From the NCBI GenBank assembly GCA_938085105.1, contig CALKGK010000002.1, forward strand, positions 1 through 64,000: 64,000 nt of DNA, given 5' to 3'. This stretch comes from an uncultured Flavobacteriales bacterium (GTDB lineage: Bacteria; Bacteroidota; Bacteroidia; Flavobacteriales_D; Sanyastnellaceae). Below are positions 39,237 to 47,832 of the stretch, piece by piece; position 1 is the first letter of the stretch; each line of letters starts with the position of its first letter. Both the position numbers and the translations under genes were made by a program. The notes beneath the pieces were generated by a model. It was given only the letters and a program-made list of their open reading frames with translations. It was not told the DNA's origin and did not search any database.

Positions 39237-39265
39237 TTCGGATTGATAATTGCACCTTGCAAATT

Positions 39266-41308
39266 ATGAGAATACCCGTAGTCCTATCAATGATTGTTTG
39301 TCTGAACCTCATCATCAAGGGTGAAGTTCAAGCACAAGATGAATGTGAATACACCCCTAGCTCAAAAGCAGAAAAGCTCTTGACTAAATCGGAAGACAAA
39401 CGAAAATACTCCTTTGACGAGCGCCAAGAACTGATTCAAGAGGCCCTGGAAGAGGATGAAAACTGTTACCCGTGCATGCTCCAACTTGGAGTACGAGCAT
39501 TCAAAACAGCGAAAAGAACCGGTGGTAGTTTTGGTGCAGCTCAGGTGATGTTGAAAAAGCTGACGGATGCTTGTCCGGAATACCACAGCGAGCCCTACTA
39601 CTACCTTGGAGCAATGGCTTATGCCGATAATAACTATGCAGCAGCCTTGGATTATTTCGACTTCTTCCTGCATTTCCCCAATGACGACGAATCCAAATAC
39701 GCCCGCGACTATGAAGACAAGTACGCGGATGTTGAAGAGGTGATTCCTTTTGTGGAGTTCTATCGCGACTTCAATAAATATGCAGATTCCTATAGTCCTT
39801 CTCTGGTTGAAGGAGTTTCGAGTGAAAAGGATGAATACCTTCCAGCATTGAGTCCGGATAGCGAAATCATGTTCTATACCCGACACTACATGAAAAAAGC
39901 CAAAGGTGATTATGTGGCCAAAGCTGTGGAGGAATTTACTTGGAGTTTAAGAGGTGATTTGAATGCGAGTTTTGATGGTGGTGATGCGCTTCCGAAACCT
40001 TTCAACATGGGCGACAATTATGGAGGTGCAAGCATCTCTGTGGACAACAAAGAACTGTTCATCGCCAAAAGAAACCCCGTGGACAACAACCCTGAAAACA
40101 TTGATCTCTATTTAACAAGGTATGAGCTCACAGAAGATCCAAAAACGGGAAAGAAATCGTACATCTGGACAGAACTCAGCAACTTGGGCGAAAAGATCAA
40201 TACCGATGACGGTTGGGAGAGTCAGCCCAGCTTGAGTGGTGACGGACAAACCCTCTACTTCGCCACTCTCCGTGCAAGCACTCAAAAAGAAGGAGCACAA
40301 AATCCCGATACCGATATTTACTACAGCGAACGACAAGAAGATGGATCATGGGGTCCTGCGCAAGCCCTCCCCGCTCCTATCAACACCAAGTGGAACGACA
40401 AAGCCCCCTTCATGCACAGCGATTCCCACACCTTGTATTTCGCAAGCGATCGTCAGCCTGGAGGTGGAGGCTACGACATATGGTACACTCGTCAGCAAGA
40501 AGACGGATCTTGGAGCAGACCGAAAAACATTGGAGCCCCCGTCAACACCAGTGAAGATGAGCACGGAATGATTGTTTCCAGTGATGGTGAGTATGCATAT
40601 TACGCAAGCCGCACCATCCGTGGGAGCAGAGGAATGGACATCTACTCCTTCCCCATCCCCGAAGAAGCCAAACCCGAAAAAGTGATGATCTTGAAGGGGC
40701 AAGTGATGACCAAAGACGGTGAAGTTCCCGAAAACGCTGAAATCAACATCAAGTATGTTCAGAGCAAGAGTGCCCAGAAAATTGAATTAAATCAGGACGA
40801 TGGAAAGTATGCCGCCGTGATCAACATCGACCGCGAAGAAGATGTTGTGGTGCAAGTGAGTGGAGATGATGTAGCCTTCAACACTCACCTCGTGGTAGAT
40901 AAAGATGAAGAACGACAAGCAGATGTGGTGAAGTTGGACATGGTGAAGGAGGAAGTCAAAAAGGGAAGCTCATTCGTTATTCCAGACATCTATTACAGCA
41001 CCGCATCAGCCGACATCAATCGGGAATCGATGATCATCCTCGATGAGTTTGTGGACTATCTCTTGGCCAACCCCAACATCGTTATAGAAATTCAAGGACA
41101 TACCGACGATGAAGGGAATGCTGCTGACAACCTCGCACTCTCGATGGATAGAGCTTTTGAAGTGAAGGGATATTTAGAGAAAAAAGGAATTTCTGGGTCG
41201 CGTATTAAGGCAAAAGGCTACGGTGAAACACGACCAATTGCAGACAATACGAGCCCTTCAGGCAAGGCGAAAAACAGACGCACAGAATTTATGATTATCA
41301 GCATGTAA
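39266..41308 (+). CDS. PD40 beta-propeller / OmpA-family outer-membrane protein
   Basis: 680 residues from the ATG at 39266. Signal peptide (about 1-24), then a TPR-like helical region (about 30-165). Next come PD40/TolB-like repeats, each with a P-x-L-S-x-D-G-x-x-[LI]-[YF]-[YF] core (YLPALSPDSEIMFYTR, QPSLSGDGQTLYFATL, TLYFASDRQPGGGGYDIWY). A short beta domain at about 440-545 follows. The OmpA peptidoglycan-binding domain (about 570-680) contains VIEIQGHTDDEGN, LSMDRAFEVKGYL and NRRTEF. It anchors the outer membrane to peptidoglycan. Members of this architecture are common in Bacteroidota; their role beyond anchoring is unclear. Confidence 0.9.
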   Translation: MRIPVVLSMIVCLNLIIKGEVQAQDECEYTPSSKAEKLLTKSEDKRKYSFDERQELIQEALEEDENCYPCMLQLGVRAFKTAKRTGGSFGAAQVMLKKLTDACPEYHSEPYYYLGAMAYADNNYAAALDYFDFFLHFPNDDESKYARDYEDKYADVEEVIPFVEFYRDFNKYADSYSPSLVEGVSSEKDEYLPALSPDSEIMFYTRHYMKKAKGDYVAKAVEEFTWSLRGDLNASFDGGDALPKPFNMGDNYGGASISVDNKELFIAKRNPVDNNPENIDLYLTRYELTEDPKTGKKSYIWTELSNLGEKINTDDGWESQPSLSGDGQTLYFATLRASTQKEGAQNPDTDIYYSERQEDGSWGPAQALPAPINTKWNDKAPFMHSDSHTLYFASDRQPGGGGYDIWYTRQQEDGSWSRPKNIGAPVNTSEDEHGMIVSSDGEYAYYASRTIRGSRGMDIYSFPIPEEAKPEKVMILKGQVMTKDGEVPENAEINIKYVQSKSAQKIELNQDDGKYAAVINIDREEDVVVQVSGDDVAFNTHLVVDKDEERQADVVKLDMVKEEVKKGSSFVIPDIYYSTASADINRESMIILDEFVDYLLANPNIVIEIQGHTDDEGNAADNLALSMDRAFEVKGYLEKKGISGSRIKAKGYGETRPIADNTSPSGKAKNRRTEFMIISM

Positions 41309-41638: not shown

Positions 41639-41658
41639 TCCTTTATCAATCATACTTG

Positions 41659-41691
41659 AAGAGGAGTTCATTTTGGGCTCCTCTTTTTTTT
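41659..41691 (+). terminator. Rho-independent terminator after small lipoprotein gene
   Basis: Stem AAGAGGAG/CTCCTCTT with an 11-nt loop and a T-run of eight, 20 nt after the stop at 41638. Confidence 0.85.
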
Positions 41692-41732
41692 GCTAAAAAT
41701 GTGCAATTCAATAAGGTAACAAGAGAAATTTG

Positions 41733-41740
41733 TAATTTCG
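41733..41740 (+). promoter_or_regulatory. Probable -7 element of DUF4920 gene
   Basis: TAATTTCG, one base off TAnnTTTG, 20 nt before the ATG at 41761. The same AATTTGTAATTTCG string precedes ftcD. Confidence 0.45.
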
Positions 41741-41760
41741 CGCCAAATCAAAATCAAAAA

Positions 41761-42474
41761 ATGAAACATTTATTCTTTTTAGGAATGATTGCTTTGCTAG
41801 CGAGCTGCGGCGGAGGTCAATCACACGATCACGCTGAAGGTGAAATCGTTGAAACAAGCATTGAAAACGTTAACTACGGAGAGGCTTTTGAAGTATCCGA
41901 AGTAGTAAGCATTGACGAAGTAGCTGCAGCCCTTGATACCATGGGAACCGTAGACTGTGTTGTAAAGGCAAACATCGTTGAAACCTGCGCGAAAATGGGT
42001 TGCTGGATGACCGTTGAGCAGAGCAACGGAGAACCTGTAATGGTTTACATGAATGACCATTCTTTCTTTGTTCCTAAAGAAGGTATGGGTGGCAAAACGG
42101 CTTTGATTAAAGCAACTGCAACAAAAGACACTACGTCGGTAGAAATGTTGAAGCACTTGAAAGAAGATGCCAATGCACCACAGGAAGAAATTGACGCGAT
42201 TACTGAGCCTAAATTCGGTATGAAATTGAACGCAACCGGTGTAATTATCGAGGGTGTAGAAGTTGAGAAATCAGGAGCTGCTGATGCAATGCACGAGGCT
42301 ATTGATCACGCAGTAGACCACGCACACGACGCAGTAGACCACGTTCACGAGCAAGTTGAAAACGTTGAAGAAAACGCAAAAGACTTGGCAAATGATGCTT
42401 TAGAAACTACAGGAAATGCTTTGGACAAAGCTGGTGAAACAATAGATCAAGCGCAAGAAGCTGTGAGCAAATAA
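41761..42474 (+). CDS. DUF4920 lipoprotein with His-rich helical tail
   Basis: 237 residues from the ATG at 41761, which gives lipoprotein signal MKHLFFLGMIALLASCGGG (Cys at 16). An in-frame upstream start would hide it. Residues about 35-168 are a DUF4920 domain with ETCAKMGCWMTVE, VYMNDHSFFVP and KFGMKLNATGVIIEG. Residues 169-237 form an extra helical tail, first His-rich (AMHEAIDHAVDHAHDAVDHV, six His at regular spacing) and then Ala/Glu/Asp-rich. A short HDH motif also follows the lipidation Cys. The His pattern could bind metal; this is inference. DUF4920 function is unknown. A bidirectional terminator follows. Confidence 0.85.
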   Translation: MKHLFFLGMIALLASCGGGQSHDHAEGEIVETSIENVNYGEAFEVSEVVSIDEVAAALDTMGTVDCVVKANIVETCAKMGCWMTVEQSNGEPVMVYMNDHSFFVPKEGMGGKTALIKATATKDTTSVEMLKHLKEDANAPQEEIDAITEPKFGMKLNATGVIIEGVEVEKSGAADAMHEAIDHAVDHAHDAVDHVHEQVENVEENAKDLANDALETTGNALDKAGETIDQAQEAVSK

Positions 42475-42581: not shown

Positions 42582-43997
42582 TCATTCTCCCAAAATCCCC
42601 AAAGCGTAATTGGTCTTGAGAATGGCCTTTTGGTTTTCAGCTAAGAGCGAAACTAATTTTATCTGAGCATTGATATAACTCAATTCGCGAGAGTTGACGA
42701 GAAAAAGTGAGCTCTCTCCAGCTTCAAACTTTCTTCTTTCCCCCGCTAGAAGCTGTTCATAGTCCCTCACCGTTCTTCGATACAAGGCAATTTGCTCAAA
42801 ACTCACGTCCCACATGTTCAGGGCTGCCTGCAACTTGTTTTGAAGATTGGCTTGCTTGTTCTCAAAGGCCAACTCTTGTTCACGAATTTTCAATCCCGTT
42901 AGTGCCACACCACTTCGCTCCTTTCTCAGAAAAAGAGGCATGTTGAACTCCAGCCCCCACGAGTAATTGTTCACACTGTAATTGGCTAGTGGACTGTCGC
43001 CAACGAGCCTTTCATTCAGCGGTTGATATTTCAGGTTGATCTCGGGTTTGAGTTGCTCTCTTTTCCAGCGCTCCTCAATTTCGAGTTGTTCGATTTTGAA
43101 CCCGGTCAGTAGCAGTTCAGGGTGCTGCAATACTAAATCTTGGAGTACAATCTGACTCAAGCTCGCTGCATTGCTCACTGTAAGTTCGTCTTCACGGTAG
43201 GGAACGGTATTCTCTTCTAGCACTAAGGGAACCATCCCATCAGCCCACAAAAACACGCCCAAATACAAAGCACTGTTTTTGAAATCGAGTTCCGCTTGTT
43301 GCAAGGCGAGCAATCGGTTTTGCACTTGAATTCCAGCTTCAAGGGTGTCGATGGCAGGTACATCTCCAAGTCGCGCACTTTGCTTCACCCCAACAAAACG
43401 CTCTTGTGCTAACTGCAAAGCTCCTCTGTAAATTCTGAGGTTGTTGTATGATTTGAAAAAGTCCCAATATGCTTCCCCTGCAGAAAAGAGCAGTTCGTTC
43501 ATCAATCGTACTCGTTCAGCCTCTGTGCTTTCTTGATACACCTGTGCCTGGCGGAGTCCGGCCCGGCGTTCATCGATGAACATCCCTTGTCCCAAAGCCA
43601 TGCTCACTCCACCCATCCACAACCCTGTGGAAGGAACGCTGTTCTCCGGATTCAAAAACACTCCTTGATTTTGCTCAAAGCCTGCCATGAGTTCCAAACC
43701 AAACCACGTTGGCACCTTCACTCCTGCGTCAATGTTGCTGTAGTATTGGCTGTCTTTAAAGTATTTCTGACTCACATCAGAATAGGCCTTTGGGTCAAAA
43801 CCACCCCGCGCTCCTTGCACTGTGGCATCACCAAAAGCTTCCTGTAAATTGGCTTGCACGCTGAGTGGGTGACCTTTTTTCACCAAGGACATGAATGCAT
43901 CAAAAGGCAAAACCTTCAAACTATCGGTTGTTTCCTCCTGCGCGCACATATTCATGCTCAGCAGAAAGAAAGCAAACATCCATAAGTTCTTTTTCAT
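42582..43997 (-). CDS. TolC-family outer-membrane efflux/secretion channel
   Basis: 471 residues from the ATG at 43997; a GTG three bases earlier is also in frame. Signal peptide about 1-19 (LWMFAFFLLSMNMCAQ). The two-fold helical hairpin repeat of TolC is visible as long amphipathic helices. These include RVRLMNELLFSAGEAYWDFFKSYNNLRIYRGALQLAQERF (in parts: SAGEAYWDFFKSYNNLRIY) and the second-half equivalent QIALYRRTVRDYEQLLAGERRKFEAGESSLF (as YRRTVRDYEQLLAGE, KFEAGESSLF). It forms the outer-membrane exit duct for the HlyD/ABC pair upstream. The start overlaps the HlyD stop by one base (TGATG), implying coupling. Confidence 0.9.
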   Translation of the reverse strand: MKKNLWMFAFFLLSMNMCAQEETTDSLKVLPFDAFMSLVKKGHPLSVQANLQEAFGDATVQGARGGFDPKAYSDVSQKYFKDSQYYSNIDAGVKVPTWFGLELMAGFEQNQGVFLNPENSVPSTGLWMGGVSMALGQGMFIDERRAGLRQAQVYQESTEAERVRLMNELLFSAGEAYWDFFKSYNNLRIYRGALQLAQERFVGVKQSARLGDVPAIDTLEAGIQVQNRLLALQQAELDFKNSALYLGVFLWADGMVPLVLEENTVPYREDELTVSNAASLSQIVLQDLVLQHPELLLTGFKIEQLEIEERWKREQLKPEINLKYQPLNERLVGDSPLANYSVNNYSWGLEFNMPLFLRKERSGVALTGLKIREQELAFENKQANLQNKLQAALNMWDVSFEQIALYRRTVRDYEQLLAGERRKFEAGESSLFLVNSRELSYINAQIKLVSLLAENQKAILKTNYALGILGE

Positions 43998-45355
43998 CAC
44001 TTCTTGGCTTTATCTTCTGTTCCTGATTTTTCTGAGGTCTTGTAATAATCTGGCGGGAAACCGTTGATTTGTCGCCAGAGTTCGTACCACACAAAAACGT
44101 CCTTCAATAGCGTCATACTGTTTGTTCCCGCACCTACACGAAGCGCATCTGGCCAAGCGTGATCTTCAGGGTCGGGCTCTACCAAGATGCGGTATTTCCC
44201 ATTCTCACTGATGAAGTTATCGATGGCAAACACTTTTCCGCCATAAGTACCATAACTCGTATTTGGCCATCCAGAAAATACAATCGCTGGCCACCCGTCA
44301 AATTGGAGCCTTACTTTTTGTCCTTTCTCCATAAGCGGTAGGTCAATCGGACGAATGAACATCGCCACCGCCAAGTCGTACTGCGCCGGCATGATGCTCA
44401 CAATCTCCTCTCCTTCTTTCATGGTCTCGCCGAGTCCGATTTGAATGGCTTTGGTAACATAGCCGTCCTGAGGAGCCGTGATGTAATAAAGTCCTTGACG
44501 AACCGAGTAATTCATGTACTGGTTTTGGAGTTTAGTGACCACCGCCTCAGCATCATACATGTTGGACAAGGCCGTGAATTTCTCCGATTCCGCCTTGGCA
44601 ATTTCCTTTCGGTACTGCGCTTCGATGGAAGTCAATTCCACTTGGGCGTTGATCAACTCATTTTGTGAGGTGAGCAATTTATTTTCAGCAGAAATCATTT
44701 CCGCTTTTGTCTTTTGCAAAGCTTGTTGGCGCTTCTCCAAATCGGTTTGTGATTTCAAGCCTTCCGCAGCCAGTTCTTCCATTCGAATGAGCTGATCTTG
44801 GGCAATTTTGAAATTCAATTGATATGCTTTGAAGTCGATACTATCGCTTGTGATTTTCAGGTTGGCCTGCTTCACTTTGTTTCGAGCTTGCTGCATTTTT
44901 AATCGGCTAGTTTGCACCAATGCATCCACTTGATTGTCTTGTGCCTTGACCTTTTCCATGTAGGATTGAACCGCCATTTCTTTTGCTTTCAACTGCTCAT
45001 CGGTTCTTGCAAGGAGTTGAGGATCGAAGTACTCATCTTTTACCTCAGAGATGAAGAGAATGGTATCTCCCTTGTGCACGAAGTCTCCTTCTTGGACAAA
45101 CCAACGCTCGACTCTTCCGGCAATCACCGAATGGATGGTTTGTGGACGCTGATCTGGTTTGAGGGTAGTTACCTCACCCCGAGCGCGAATATTCTGGGTC
45201 CATGGCAAAAAGAGAATGATCAAAAAAGCGATAAATAAACCTACAAACAGGCGAAGAAGTACATTGCCAGACACTCGTTTCTCAGCGCTATCCAGAGCTG
45301 AAAACTTCTCTTGTTTGATGTGTTTTTTGACATTTAAATCTGAAATATTCAGCAT
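43997..45355 (-). CDS. HlyD-family periplasmic adaptor
   Basis: 452 residues. One TM at about 33-50 (LLRLFVGLFIAFLIILFLPW). Lipoyl-like half motifs flank a long coiled-coil hairpin: SVIAGRVERWFVQEGDFVHKGD (as GRVERWFVQEGDFVHKGD) and ITAPQDGYVTKAIQIGLG. The hairpin spans about 110-290 and is rich in Gln/Glu/Lys. This is the membrane-fusion protein of type I secretion-like systems, linking the ABC protein to TolC. A short C-terminal Trp-rich stretch (VFVWYELWRQINGFPPDYY) is unusual. It starts 51 nt after the ABC gene and overlaps TolC by one base. Confidence 0.92.
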   Translation of the reverse strand: MLNISDLNVKKHIKQEKFSALDSAEKRVSGNVLLRLFVGLFIAFLIILFLPWTQNIRARGEVTTLKPDQRPQTIHSVIAGRVERWFVQEGDFVHKGDTILFISEVKDEYFDPQLLARTDEQLKAKEMAVQSYMEKVKAQDNQVDALVQTSRLKMQQARNKVKQANLKITSDSIDFKAYQLNFKIAQDQLIRMEELAAEGLKSQTDLEKRQQALQKTKAEMISAENKLLTSQNELINAQVELTSIEAQYRKEIAKAESEKFTALSNMYDAEAVVTKLQNQYMNYSVRQGLYYITAPQDGYVTKAIQIGLGETMKEGEEIVSIMPAQYDLAVAMFIRPIDLPLMEKGQKVRLQFDGWPAIVFSGWPNTSYGTYGGKVFAIDNFISENGKYRILVEPDPEDHAWPDALRVGAGTNSMTLLKDVFVWYELWRQINGFPPDYYKTSEKSGTEDKAKK

Positions 45356-45406: not shown

Positions 45407-47089
45407 TTAAGAGGCCTTTTCCACGATTCGTCCATCTTTCATCACCACAACTTTATTGGCGGTTTGTAAAAAGAATGGATCTCGTGAGATGACAACCAAA
45501 GACCATTTCTGCTCAGGTGAAGTGAGGAATGAAATGATATCCTTTCGCTCTTCTTCCCTCAGGTTCTCTAAAGGATATTCCAACAAGAGCAACTTGGGCT
45601 TATCTGCAATACTTCGCGCTAAGAGCATTTTTTGAACGGTGCTTTTAGGCAGTTTTGTTCCTTGTGGATCAATGTGCGATTCATAACCATCGGGCAAACT
45701 TTGGATGAATGGCTTCAACCCTAAAGCTTCTACCGCCCACTGTATGTTCTCAAAAGAGGCATTTTTCCTTCCCATTCCGATGTTCTCCAAAACGCTTCCC
45801 TCAAAGAGTTTTTCCTGAGAGAGGTAATCTCCAATCGACGAGCGTAGGTTGCACAGGTTGAGGTTACCCATAGGAAGTCCGTTAAAAGACACTACTCCCT
45901 CTTGTACTTCATAGAGTCCGGCCATGAGCTGAAGCAAGGAGCGTTTTCCTGCACCATTCCCACCCGTAATCACCATGCGATCTCCCGGTTTAAGGTGCAA
46001 GTTAATGTCGCTCAAATTGGGCTTCGATTTCCCTGGATAAAAGAAGGTTACATCGTTTAACTGCAGTTCCATACCGTTCTGACCACAAAGCTCAGAAGTG
46101 CTGTTTCCTGTCTGGTTTTCAAGTGTAAGATCGGTCACCTGCCCTACTTTCTCGAGGGAAGTGAGAACGTCATAAATGGTTTCCAAACTGGCGATCAACT
46201 TCTCCACCGAACTCATAATGAGAAGGATGATGATCTCAGCTGCGACGAACTGACCAATGTTCATGAGCTGTTCCATCACCAAGATTCCACCAATGGCGAG
46301 GAGTCCGAGGGCAACAATCACCTTAAACACGACCATCAAAGAATACTGCTGCACCAAAACCTTAAAGTGGCTCTCGCGATAAGTGAGGTAGTCACCAACG
46401 TGTTTGTTGGTTCGGTCCAAGGGCAAATCCGTTTCTCCTGCCAATTTAAACGTGGTTTCCGTTCTTGCCAATTCCTCCAGCCAGTGCGCGGTTTTGTATT
46501 TGTGTTTCGACTCTTTCAAGCTTGTTTGCAGCCCCCTTTTATACGTAAACTTAAAAATCACTGCAATCAAAACCACCAAAATCAAACTGAACGCCACGAA
46601 GAAGGGGTGATAAAGGGAGAGCAGAATCAAACCAAAAATCACCTGCATGGAAGACGCCGTGAAGTCGATGAGGATCTTTGAAAGACCTTTTTGTACCGAC
46701 ATGATATCAAAAAAGCGGTTCATCAATTCTGGAGCGTAGTGCTTATAAAGTTCCTCCATCTTGATGCGGGGAATCCGGTAGGCAAACTCAAAGGCCGCTC
46801 TACTAAAAATCTTCTGTTGAAGGTTCTCTACAATCCTCAACTGATAAATCTGCAAAGCTCCAGAAATGGCCACACCCAATACAACGATGGCCACAAGGAT
46901 GATCCATGAGGTGTTCATTTGACCACCTTGTATCAAGTTAACAATTGCCTGAATCCCAAGAGGTAAGGATAAGTTGATTAAACCATTGAAAATAGCATAG
47001 GCATAGACGTTTCTGATCTCTCTTTTGTCTGGCTTGAGCAGTTTCCAAAAACGCTGATTGGGCTTTAATACTTCTTCGCTTGATTCCAT
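45407..47089 (-). CDS. ABC exporter (TM plus ATPase domain) with degenerate nucleotide-binding motifs
   Basis: 560 residues. TM exporter domain about 27-310 with six segments; ATPase-type domain about 338-556. Motif by motif, the ATPase domain is degraded. Walker A reads GGNGAGKRS, keeping K382 but with Arg383 where Ser/Thr binds Mg. The Q-loop Gln425 is kept (LSQEKLFEGS). The signature LSGGQ is replaced by LPKST (480-484). Walker B LLLDE is replaced by LLLEY, so the catalytic Glu is Tyr505. The H-loop His is replaced by Arg536 (VVISRDPF). No peptidase domain precedes the TM part. The reading frame is intact, with no sign of a pseudogene. Between TetR and HlyD in one operon, it is the inner-membrane part of the export system, but a homodimer should not hydrolyse ATP. 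Confidence 0.9.
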   Translation of the reverse strand: MESSEEVLKPNQRFWKLLKPDKREIRNVYAYAIFNGLINLSLPLGIQAIVNLIQGGQMNTSWIILVAIVVLGVAISGALQIYQLRIVENLQQKIFSRAAFEFAYRIPRIKMEELYKHYAPELMNRFFDIMSVQKGLSKILIDFTASSMQVIFGLILLSLYHPFFVAFSLILVVLIAVIFKFTYKRGLQTSLKESKHKYKTAHWLEELARTETTFKLAGETDLPLDRTNKHVGDYLTYRESHFKVLVQQYSLMVVFKVIVALGLLAIGGILVMEQLMNIGQFVAAEIIILLIMSSVEKLIASLETIYDVLTSLEKVGQVTDLTLENQTGNSTSELCGQNGMELQLNDVTFFYPGKSKPNLSDINLHLKPGDRMVITGGNGAGKRSLLQLMAGLYEVQEGVVSFNGLPMGNLNLCNLRSSIGDYLSQEKLFEGSVLENIGMGRKNASFENIQWAVEALGLKPFIQSLPDGYESHIDPQGTKLPKSTVQKMLLARSIADKPKLLLLEYPLENLREEERKDIISFLTSPEQKWSLVVISRDPFFLQTANKVVVMKDGRIVEKAS

Positions 47090-47769
47090 TATGATGCTTT
47101 AATGAGGGTCAATACCATGTTCTGGTAGTACTTTGTAATTCCTTTTTCTCCGCAAACCACGTCGGTCAATCTCGGTAAGTGTTCTGCAAAAAAGTGTTGA
47201 TGATTTGCCCCTTCAATCACTGTTGTGACCAGCATGTGGGGGTATTTGTATTCGGGTTGAATCTCTAAAATGATTTTCCCGATCAACTCTACAAGATCTT
47301 TATAACTGGTGTAAACACCTTGATCGTTGATTTCGTCTACCTGTTTATTGAGGTATGCTTTGGAAGATTCTGCTACTACCAAATGGTAGAGTTTCTGCTC
47401 ATCGATGTGTGGAAATTGGATATCCACCTCATGCACCCCCAAAGCCACATCCAAAGCTCGCATTAACCGCTCTTCCGCTGAAGGAACGTTGGCCGTAGCA
47501 AAAAGAATGCGGTACTGAACCCAGGCCCAATACCAAGCAGTAAGATAAAGGAGTAATTTGTGTTTGCTCTCGAAGTAGCGGTAAACCGAAGCTTCTGTGC
47601 TCCCAATTGATTTCGCCAGCTTTTTAAAGGTGAAACTTTCGAAGCCCATCTCGCTGATTAACTCAATGCTTCCACTGATGATGCGCTGACCAAGGTCGCT
47701 AGACTCTGGGTTCTTGAGGTAAATGCTGTCGTTCACCTGCAAACGTAAATTGGCATACAATCCATCCAT
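47089..47769 (-). CDS. TetR/AcrR-family transcriptional regulator
   Basis: 226 residues from the ATG at 47769; upstream in-frame starts would extend into the promoter. N-terminal HTH (about 25-70): LGQRIISGSIELISEMGFESFTFKKLAKSIGSTEASVYRYFESKHKLLLYL (key parts GFESFTFKKLAKSIGSTEAS and VYRYFESKHKLL). The helical C-terminal ligand domain contains several Trp, Tyr and His. The stop overlaps the ABC start by one base (TAATG). As first gene of the export operon, with an inverted repeat around its promoter, it most likely represses its own operon and responds to a ligand. Confidence 0.92.
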   Translation of the reverse strand: MDGLYANLRLQVNDSIYLKNPESSDLGQRIISGSIELISEMGFESFTFKKLAKSIGSTEASVYRYFESKHKLLLYLTAWYWAWVQYRILFATANVPSAEERLMRALDVALGVHEVDIQFPHIDEQKLYHLVVAESSKAYLNKQVDEINDQGVYTSYKDLVELIGKIILEIQPEYKYPHMLVTTVIEGANHQHFFAEHLPRLTDVVCGEKGITKYYQNMVLTLIKAS

Positions 47770-47772
47770 AAT

Positions 47773-47809
47773 GATAGTAACGATCGGCAAATATAATAGC
47801 ATTACTATC
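47773..47809. promoter_or_regulatory. Putative TetR operator (perfect inverted repeat) spanning the export-operon promoter
   Basis: GATAGTAA (47773-47780) and TTACTATC (47802-47809) are perfect inverted repeats 21 bp apart. A third half-site, TCACTATC, lies further upstream at about 47823-47830. The -7 element TATATTTG on the minus strand (47795 to 47788) sits between the two perfect half-sites. Confidence 0.65.
47788..47795 (-). promoter_or_regulatory. -7 element of TetR-ABC-HlyD-TolC operon
   Basis: TATATTTG on the minus strand, full TAnnTTTG match, 18 nt before the TetR ATG at 47769, enclosed by the inverted repeat described for 47773-47809. Confidence 0.6.
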
Positions 47810-47832
47810 GCTTTTGTTCGCTTCACTATCAA

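Follow-up and report, generated by a model that had tools for sequence, protein, structure and literature searches.

The ATPase is the defining feature of an ABC exporter, and the locus described here raises the question of what drives an exporter of this fold when the catalytic residues of the ATPase are gone. The window (the whole stretch of DNA analysed, 64,000 nucleotides from an uncultured Flavobacteriales bacterium) carries on its minus strand a four-gene operon headed by a TetR-family regulator (47089..47832; PF00440, E 1.1e-10), for which the mechanical start is a TTG at 47832 and the true start may sit further in. A half-ABC exporter of 560 residues follows, then a HlyD-type periplasmic adaptor, or membrane fusion protein, of 452 residues (43997..45355; PF13437, E 2e-11; TIGR01843, E 3.6e-26) and a TolC-type outer-membrane channel (42582..44000; PF02321, E 7.4e-34). 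The exporter ORF, 45407-47089, is open throughout, as a previous sequence-only reading of this DNA had stated. That reading also described the genes as tightly coupled, which holds for the TetR stop overlapping the ABC start (TAATG) and for the HlyD/TolC junction (TGATG), where the GTG start of the TolC gene overlaps the 3' end of the HlyD gene, but not for the ABC and HlyD genes, which are separated by a 51-bp gap with no coupled junction. Across the more than 70 loci compared, only the TetR (present in 47 of them), ABC, HlyD and TolC genes are conserved, and no cargo gene, either RTX or leader peptide, is conserved beside the operon.

Two further ORFs of the window lie near the operon on the plus strand. 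The adjoining one (41656-42474) encodes a small acidic lipoprotein-like product with a homologue near the operon in loci L001, L081, L082 and L089, and it may give a hint at function. The other (39257-41308), judged by eye, encodes a 683-residue protein with a repeat-rich middle and an OmpA-like C-terminus with a peptidoglycan-binding look, as is typical among Bacteroidota envelope proteins.

The exporter consists of a six-helix transmembrane domain (TMD; 46106..47089, minus strand, residues ~1-328, from PF00664 and the AF2 model) and a nucleotide-binding domain (NBD; 45407..46105, minus strand, residues ~329-560, ABC_tran, AF2 pLDDT about 90). Its matches to ABC_tran (E 1e-16) and ABC_membrane (PF00664, E 1.8e-11) are both above the Pfam cut-off, the AlphaFold model, built with 48 orthologues, shows a complete fold (mean pLDDT 86.9), and among PDB structures this model best matches PCAT1 and further exporters of type IV (Foldseek TM 0.90 to PCAT1), all of which indicates that the NBD is real but degenerate. 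Its Walker A reads GGNGAGKRS, with the Gly residues and K382 intact and R383 in place of Ser/Thr; the signature region, QGTKLPKST, has LPKST for LSGGQ; Walker B, LLLLEYP (E504, Y505), places Tyr505 at the position of the catalytic Glu; and the H-loop, SRDP (S535, R536), has Arg536 at the position of the His. Compared with a type IV ABC exporter, the six-helix TMD is thus present while LSGGQ, catalytic Glu and H-loop His are absent. Every residue named in the sequence-only reading (GKRS, LPKST, LLLEY, Arg536 and the retained K382) was found in place, but its label of a nearly motif-less domain was too strong for a Walker A with intact Gly and Lys, and the retention of the Q-loop Gln is doubtful, since in an ungapped alignment with P-glycoprotein-type proteins the canonical Gln column falls on S424 and Q425 lies one residue off register. 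A same-genus orthologue (L001, identical with L138) of 89% identity carries the same GKRS, LPKST, LEYP and SRDP, which rules out chance or sequencing error as the source of these changes. Both copies go one step further in having Arg after the P-loop Lys and Tyr at the catalytic position.

Relatives were collected from genome contigs, from 395 genomes of the phylum, 97 of which gave a match at E <= 1e-60, and by additional family-level searches. On a TMD-only tree, the clade of the window protein is separated by a fully supported split from an outgroup of 18 C39/HlyB-like Bacteroidota exporters (L090-L107), and the two sides differ sharply in catalytic residues. The H-loop His occurs in none of the 70 full-length Bacteroidota clade members versus 14 of 18 outgroup members, the fourth-position Gly of the signature in 1/70 versus 14/18, the Walker B Asp in 4/70 (Glu in 52) versus 18/18, and the catalytic Glu in 7/70 (Asp in 50) versus 17/18. 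On the other hand, the Walker A Lys is present in 67/70 clade members and in the entire outgroup, and 63 of the 70 keep the Ser/Thr after it. Walker A itself was lost in L008/L009, in L056/L160-L163 and in L155-L158, with the operon kept, and its presence changes at least four times on the tree. The sequence-only reading had allowed for this copy being a decaying gene, should its close relatives in that operon context prove canonical; the orthologue alignment that it proposed gave the opposite picture, with losses that are family-wide and ancient. The sequences show that loss of the signature, catalytic Glu and switch His is ancestral to the whole clade and maintained under purifying selection, and that the catalysis-critical residues of the NBD are dispensable throughout the family.

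Some features of these relatives deserve separate mention. The signature of the outgroup is itself non-standard (e.g. LPGGLIRK, VPLGLIRR, LSTGQIRR), although Walker B and the catalytic Glu are kept, as is the H-loop in most cases. Unlike the PCAT/HlyB-type outgroup, the window clade usually has no N-terminal peptidase-like part; L007, L065, L073, L077, L078, L079 and L087 bear an extra N-terminal stretch of ~160-180 residues, without a Pfam match in the three scanned, which is presumably left over from a C39-like domain. In L159 (genome G528) the exporter is read as two adjacent ORFs covering query residues 8-249 and 248-536, which could reflect a naturally split gene, a pseudogene or an erroneous frameshift.

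Substitution rates point in the same direction. In close pairs, dN/dS amounted to 0.01-0.05 for the TMD, 0.03-0.13 for the degenerate NBD and 0.01-0.08 for the proteins without NBD described below, values obtained by simple counting in which some synonymous distances were saturated; all usable ratios were far below 1. The NBD evolves faster than the TMD, yet without free drift, and strong purifying selection acts on both domains in close pairs.

The family also includes members from which the NBD is missing outright. Six genomes of the 395 matched residues ~8-328 alone, in frames of 334-360 residues, and such TM-only proteins were finally found in 26 genomes of three families (19 of f10, 6 of f3 and 1 of f9). 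In the 25 loci read, the TM-only protein has 329-385 residues by mechanical start, and its C-terminus lies no more than a few residues from the conserved VTDL linker. HlyD and then TolC follow in 25/25 loci, the HlyD gene overlapping or lying no more than 98 bp away, a distance too short for an NBD, and a divergent TetR gene stands upstream in 15 of the 25. One of these proteins, L119, has PF00664 as its sole family match, with no match to the SbmA/BacA family; the AF2 model of a TM-only protein reached modest confidence (pLDDT 69.7). On the TMD tree the TM-only proteins form a single clade (99*), nested among NBD-bearing members and with the degenerate L065 as sister. One genome, G424 (L133, L134), gave three matches, namely a TM-only protein, a full-length relative of 592 residues and a distant one of 757.

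A second form of NBD loss occurs in the window's own family, where TMD and HlyD are joined end to end as a single protein of 742-767 residues, with TolC as the next gene (L149:1522-3825, L150:1074-3311, L151:3867-6095, L152:5182-7425, and a partial L153). None of the fusions has a Pfam NBD, and no other example of this architecture turned up in our searches. The fusion clade stands elsewhere in the tree than the TM-only clade, its nearest relatives (L155-L158) bearing an NBD without Walker A. Altogether, NBD presence changes at least three times on the tree, but as L152 has a very long branch and an uncertain placement, we count two certain losses rather than three. The NBD has thus been lost altogether at least twice independently, and the whole domain is dispensable in two or more lineages in which TMD, HlyD and TolC remain under selection.

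What remains fixed in all these proteins is a set of charged residues in the TMD. Among the 119 non-outgroup members, NBD-less ones included, E88, K134, K138, E285, K297 and K314 are conserved at 99-100%, and position 296 is Glu or Asp in 119/119. The position of E285 is occupied by Asn in ComA and PCAT1. However, E285 is also found in 17 and E296 in 15 of the 18 outgroup members, which keep the catalytic residues; both carboxylates were therefore present before the NBD decayed and are not diagnostic of proton coupling, a situation like that of YddA, which carries part of the glutamate ladder of SbmA, according to the authors who described it (PMC13316013). Regions facing the NBD behave less uniformly. 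TM-only members show relaxed conservation in coupling helix 2, with R209 in only 10 of 25 and F214 mostly replaced by Tyr, while the NRFFD motif of ICL1 (124-128), near the NBD contact, is kept in TM-only members and lost in the TMD-HlyD fusions. The combination of a relaxed coupling helix 2 and a preserved ICL1 in TM-only members argues only partly against docking of an NBD in trans.

Taken together, we consider it rather probable that the window protein is the inner-membrane part of a TetR-controlled HlyD-TolC exporter working free of ATP hydrolysis, ion-coupled and with its NBD as a nucleotide-binding or structural remnant. The ancestors of such pumps would be peptide exporters, Bacteroidota ABC transporters of the C39/HlyB type, and ATP hydrolysis would have been abandoned later, so that the energy for transport probably comes from another source. 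The suggestion of the sequence-only reading that the system uses another energy source or works as a gated channel was, in general terms, strengthened by the NBD-less relatives. The TMD dimer would keep alternating access and pass its substrate to HlyD-TolC, and in NBD-bearing members the leftover Walker A/P-loop would at most bind nucleotide, as a structural or regulatory module. Ion coupling might do the work, most likely with protons and through the carboxylates E88, E285 and E296 of the transmembrane helices, as in SbmA, a proton-driven ABC-type fold without NBD that relies on a glutamate ladder (PMC13316013). By analogy with SbmA and with MsbA and LmrA, in which proton-coupled transport persists once the NBD is cut off (PMC4979069), the proton-motive force would be the likeliest driver. 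A small molecule, toxic or used in signalling, is the probable substrate, given the TetR-type regulator and the lack of a conserved cargo gene beside the operon.

The best surviving alternative, which we still regard as unlikely, is that ATP powers or switches the full-length members, the degenerate NBDs closing on P-loop binding and reopening by a slow or non-canonical hydrolysis, for instance by the swapped ED pair, so that only the NBD-less branches changed their energy source. The frequent retention of Walker A Gly and Lys together with the following Ser/Thr would agree with it, as would an NBD that is intact in the model and under purifying selection, and degenerate sites still bind ATP and matter, according to a review (PMC7756269). 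However, a homodimer would have no signature, no catalytic Glu and no His at either site. In the window protein the Ser/Thr of Walker A is missing as well and the catalytic residue is replaced by Tyr, and the operon was retained in the three groups without Walker A.

A passive conduit, a ligand-gated channel or an assembly scaffold, in which the TMD dimer opens or anchors HlyD-TolC for downhill exit or periplasmic loading, appears quite unlikely, even though the NBD is dispensable, some TMDs form one protein with HlyD, and the partners that never vary are HlyD and TolC. The many strongly conserved charged residues of the TMD are seemingly more than a scaffold needs.

A motor located elsewhere was also sought. 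An HMM search of all ORFs detected NBD-like ORFs in 4 of the 25 TM-only loci, none of them conserved with the operon: in three loci, of genus g51, the ORF is an ATPase of ABC-2 look one gene past TolC with its own neighbour of ~266 residues, and in the fourth, L052, it is an OLD/AAA-like ATPase. No relocated NBD was found in the 25 NBD-less genomes, where identity to the NBD of the sister clade did not exceed 32% even in the best matches; among the matches listed, all but one lie in frames of 580-1056 residues, mostly ordinary full-length exporters, the exception being a 358-residue frame in G540. No extra operon gene that could serve as alternative motor is conserved in the more than 70 loci.

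An obligate heteromer, in which a canonical half-transporter or free-standing NBD from another locus supplies catalysis, seems improbable. Partners in heterodimeric exporters are normally adjacent or co-evolving, whereas here no partner gene occurs in the operon across more than 70 loci, and nearly all genomes hold one family copy, which leaves the dedicated half-ABC partner proposed by the sequence-only reading unsupported. Heterodimers in which a single site is degenerate are common among exporters (PMC7756269), and the ICL1 still conserved in TM-only members could mean NBD docking in trans. The genome of the window does contain four other ABC exporters, but these are of canonical multidrug or MsbA type, and no type I secretion-type half-transporter was found elsewhere in it; moreover, coupling-helix-2 residues are relaxed in TM-only members, NRFFD is lost in the fusions, and an orphan NBD of this lineage was not found in the 25 NBD-less genomes. 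Finally, although motif losses by themselves fit decay, a decaying pseudogene or a local sequencing error is hardly conceivable and we reject it, given the open frame, the same-genus copy with identical changes, the family-wide loss, the dN/dS far below 1 and the intact operon.

The ion-coupled reading can be placed among known systems. PCAT/HlyB-type exporters (C39, type I secretion) share TMD homology, fold and ancestry with the window family, and in most cases the HlyD and TolC operon; compared with type I secretion or tripartite exporters, the window operon has the adjoining HlyD and TolC genes but lacks a cargo gene. Heterodimeric exporters (TM287/288, BmrCD, TAP, Pdr5-type) show losses of the same kinds, with catalytic Glu changed to Asp and altered signature and H-loop. 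However, in TM287/288-like exporters a partner or second half preserves one of the two sites in canonical form, whereas a window homodimer would have both sites degenerate, and no complementary canonical partner was found linked or co-conserved. A further parallel is offered by the SbmA/BacA-like SLiPTs, which likewise have an ABC-exporter-type TMD without NBD, NBD-bearing ancestors and conserved TMD carboxylates (PMC13316013); in the window family E88, E285 and E296 are invariant or nearly so, and they are at most candidates for a comparable glutamate ladder. Absence of the NBD, a SLiPT trait, is seen in the TM-only and fusion relatives but not in the window protein. Furthermore, SLiPTs import and have lost the coupling helices, while the window family feeds HlyD-TolC export, is TetR-regulated and has no extra TM0 helices. 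The engineered MsbA-MD and LmrA-MD also consist of an ABC exporter TMD alone and are proton-coupled (PMC4979069), but they are laboratory truncations, in contrast to an NBD loss that is natural, ancient and embedded in a tripartite operon.

NBD-less ABC folds, as in SbmA, are already known, and single degenerate sites have been reviewed in depth (PMC7756269). The open-access literature searched yielded SbmA and heterodimer papers only, with no description of a doubly degenerate, TMD-only or TMD-HlyD-fused family of HlyD-TolC exporters. It is a serious, if still tentative, possibility that in this family ion-driven secondary transporters arose naturally from ABC exporters for a second time, separately from SbmA/BacA, with intermediates surviving. 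If so, the surviving series would run from a canonical NBD through a catalytically dead NBD and a P-loop-less NBD to the TMD only and TMD-HlyD, all feeding TolC tripartite export. Annotation pipelines label such proteins as ABC transporters, or detect just a fragment or the HlyD adaptor. As one and the same pump occurs in nature in full-length, dead and NBD-less forms, the role of ATP hydrolysis in the ABC exporter fold becomes directly testable. In this widespread and selected family the motor appears disabled everywhere and was deleted at least twice, and the family would add to the TolC tripartite exporters a class that is neither ABC-driven nor RND/MFS.
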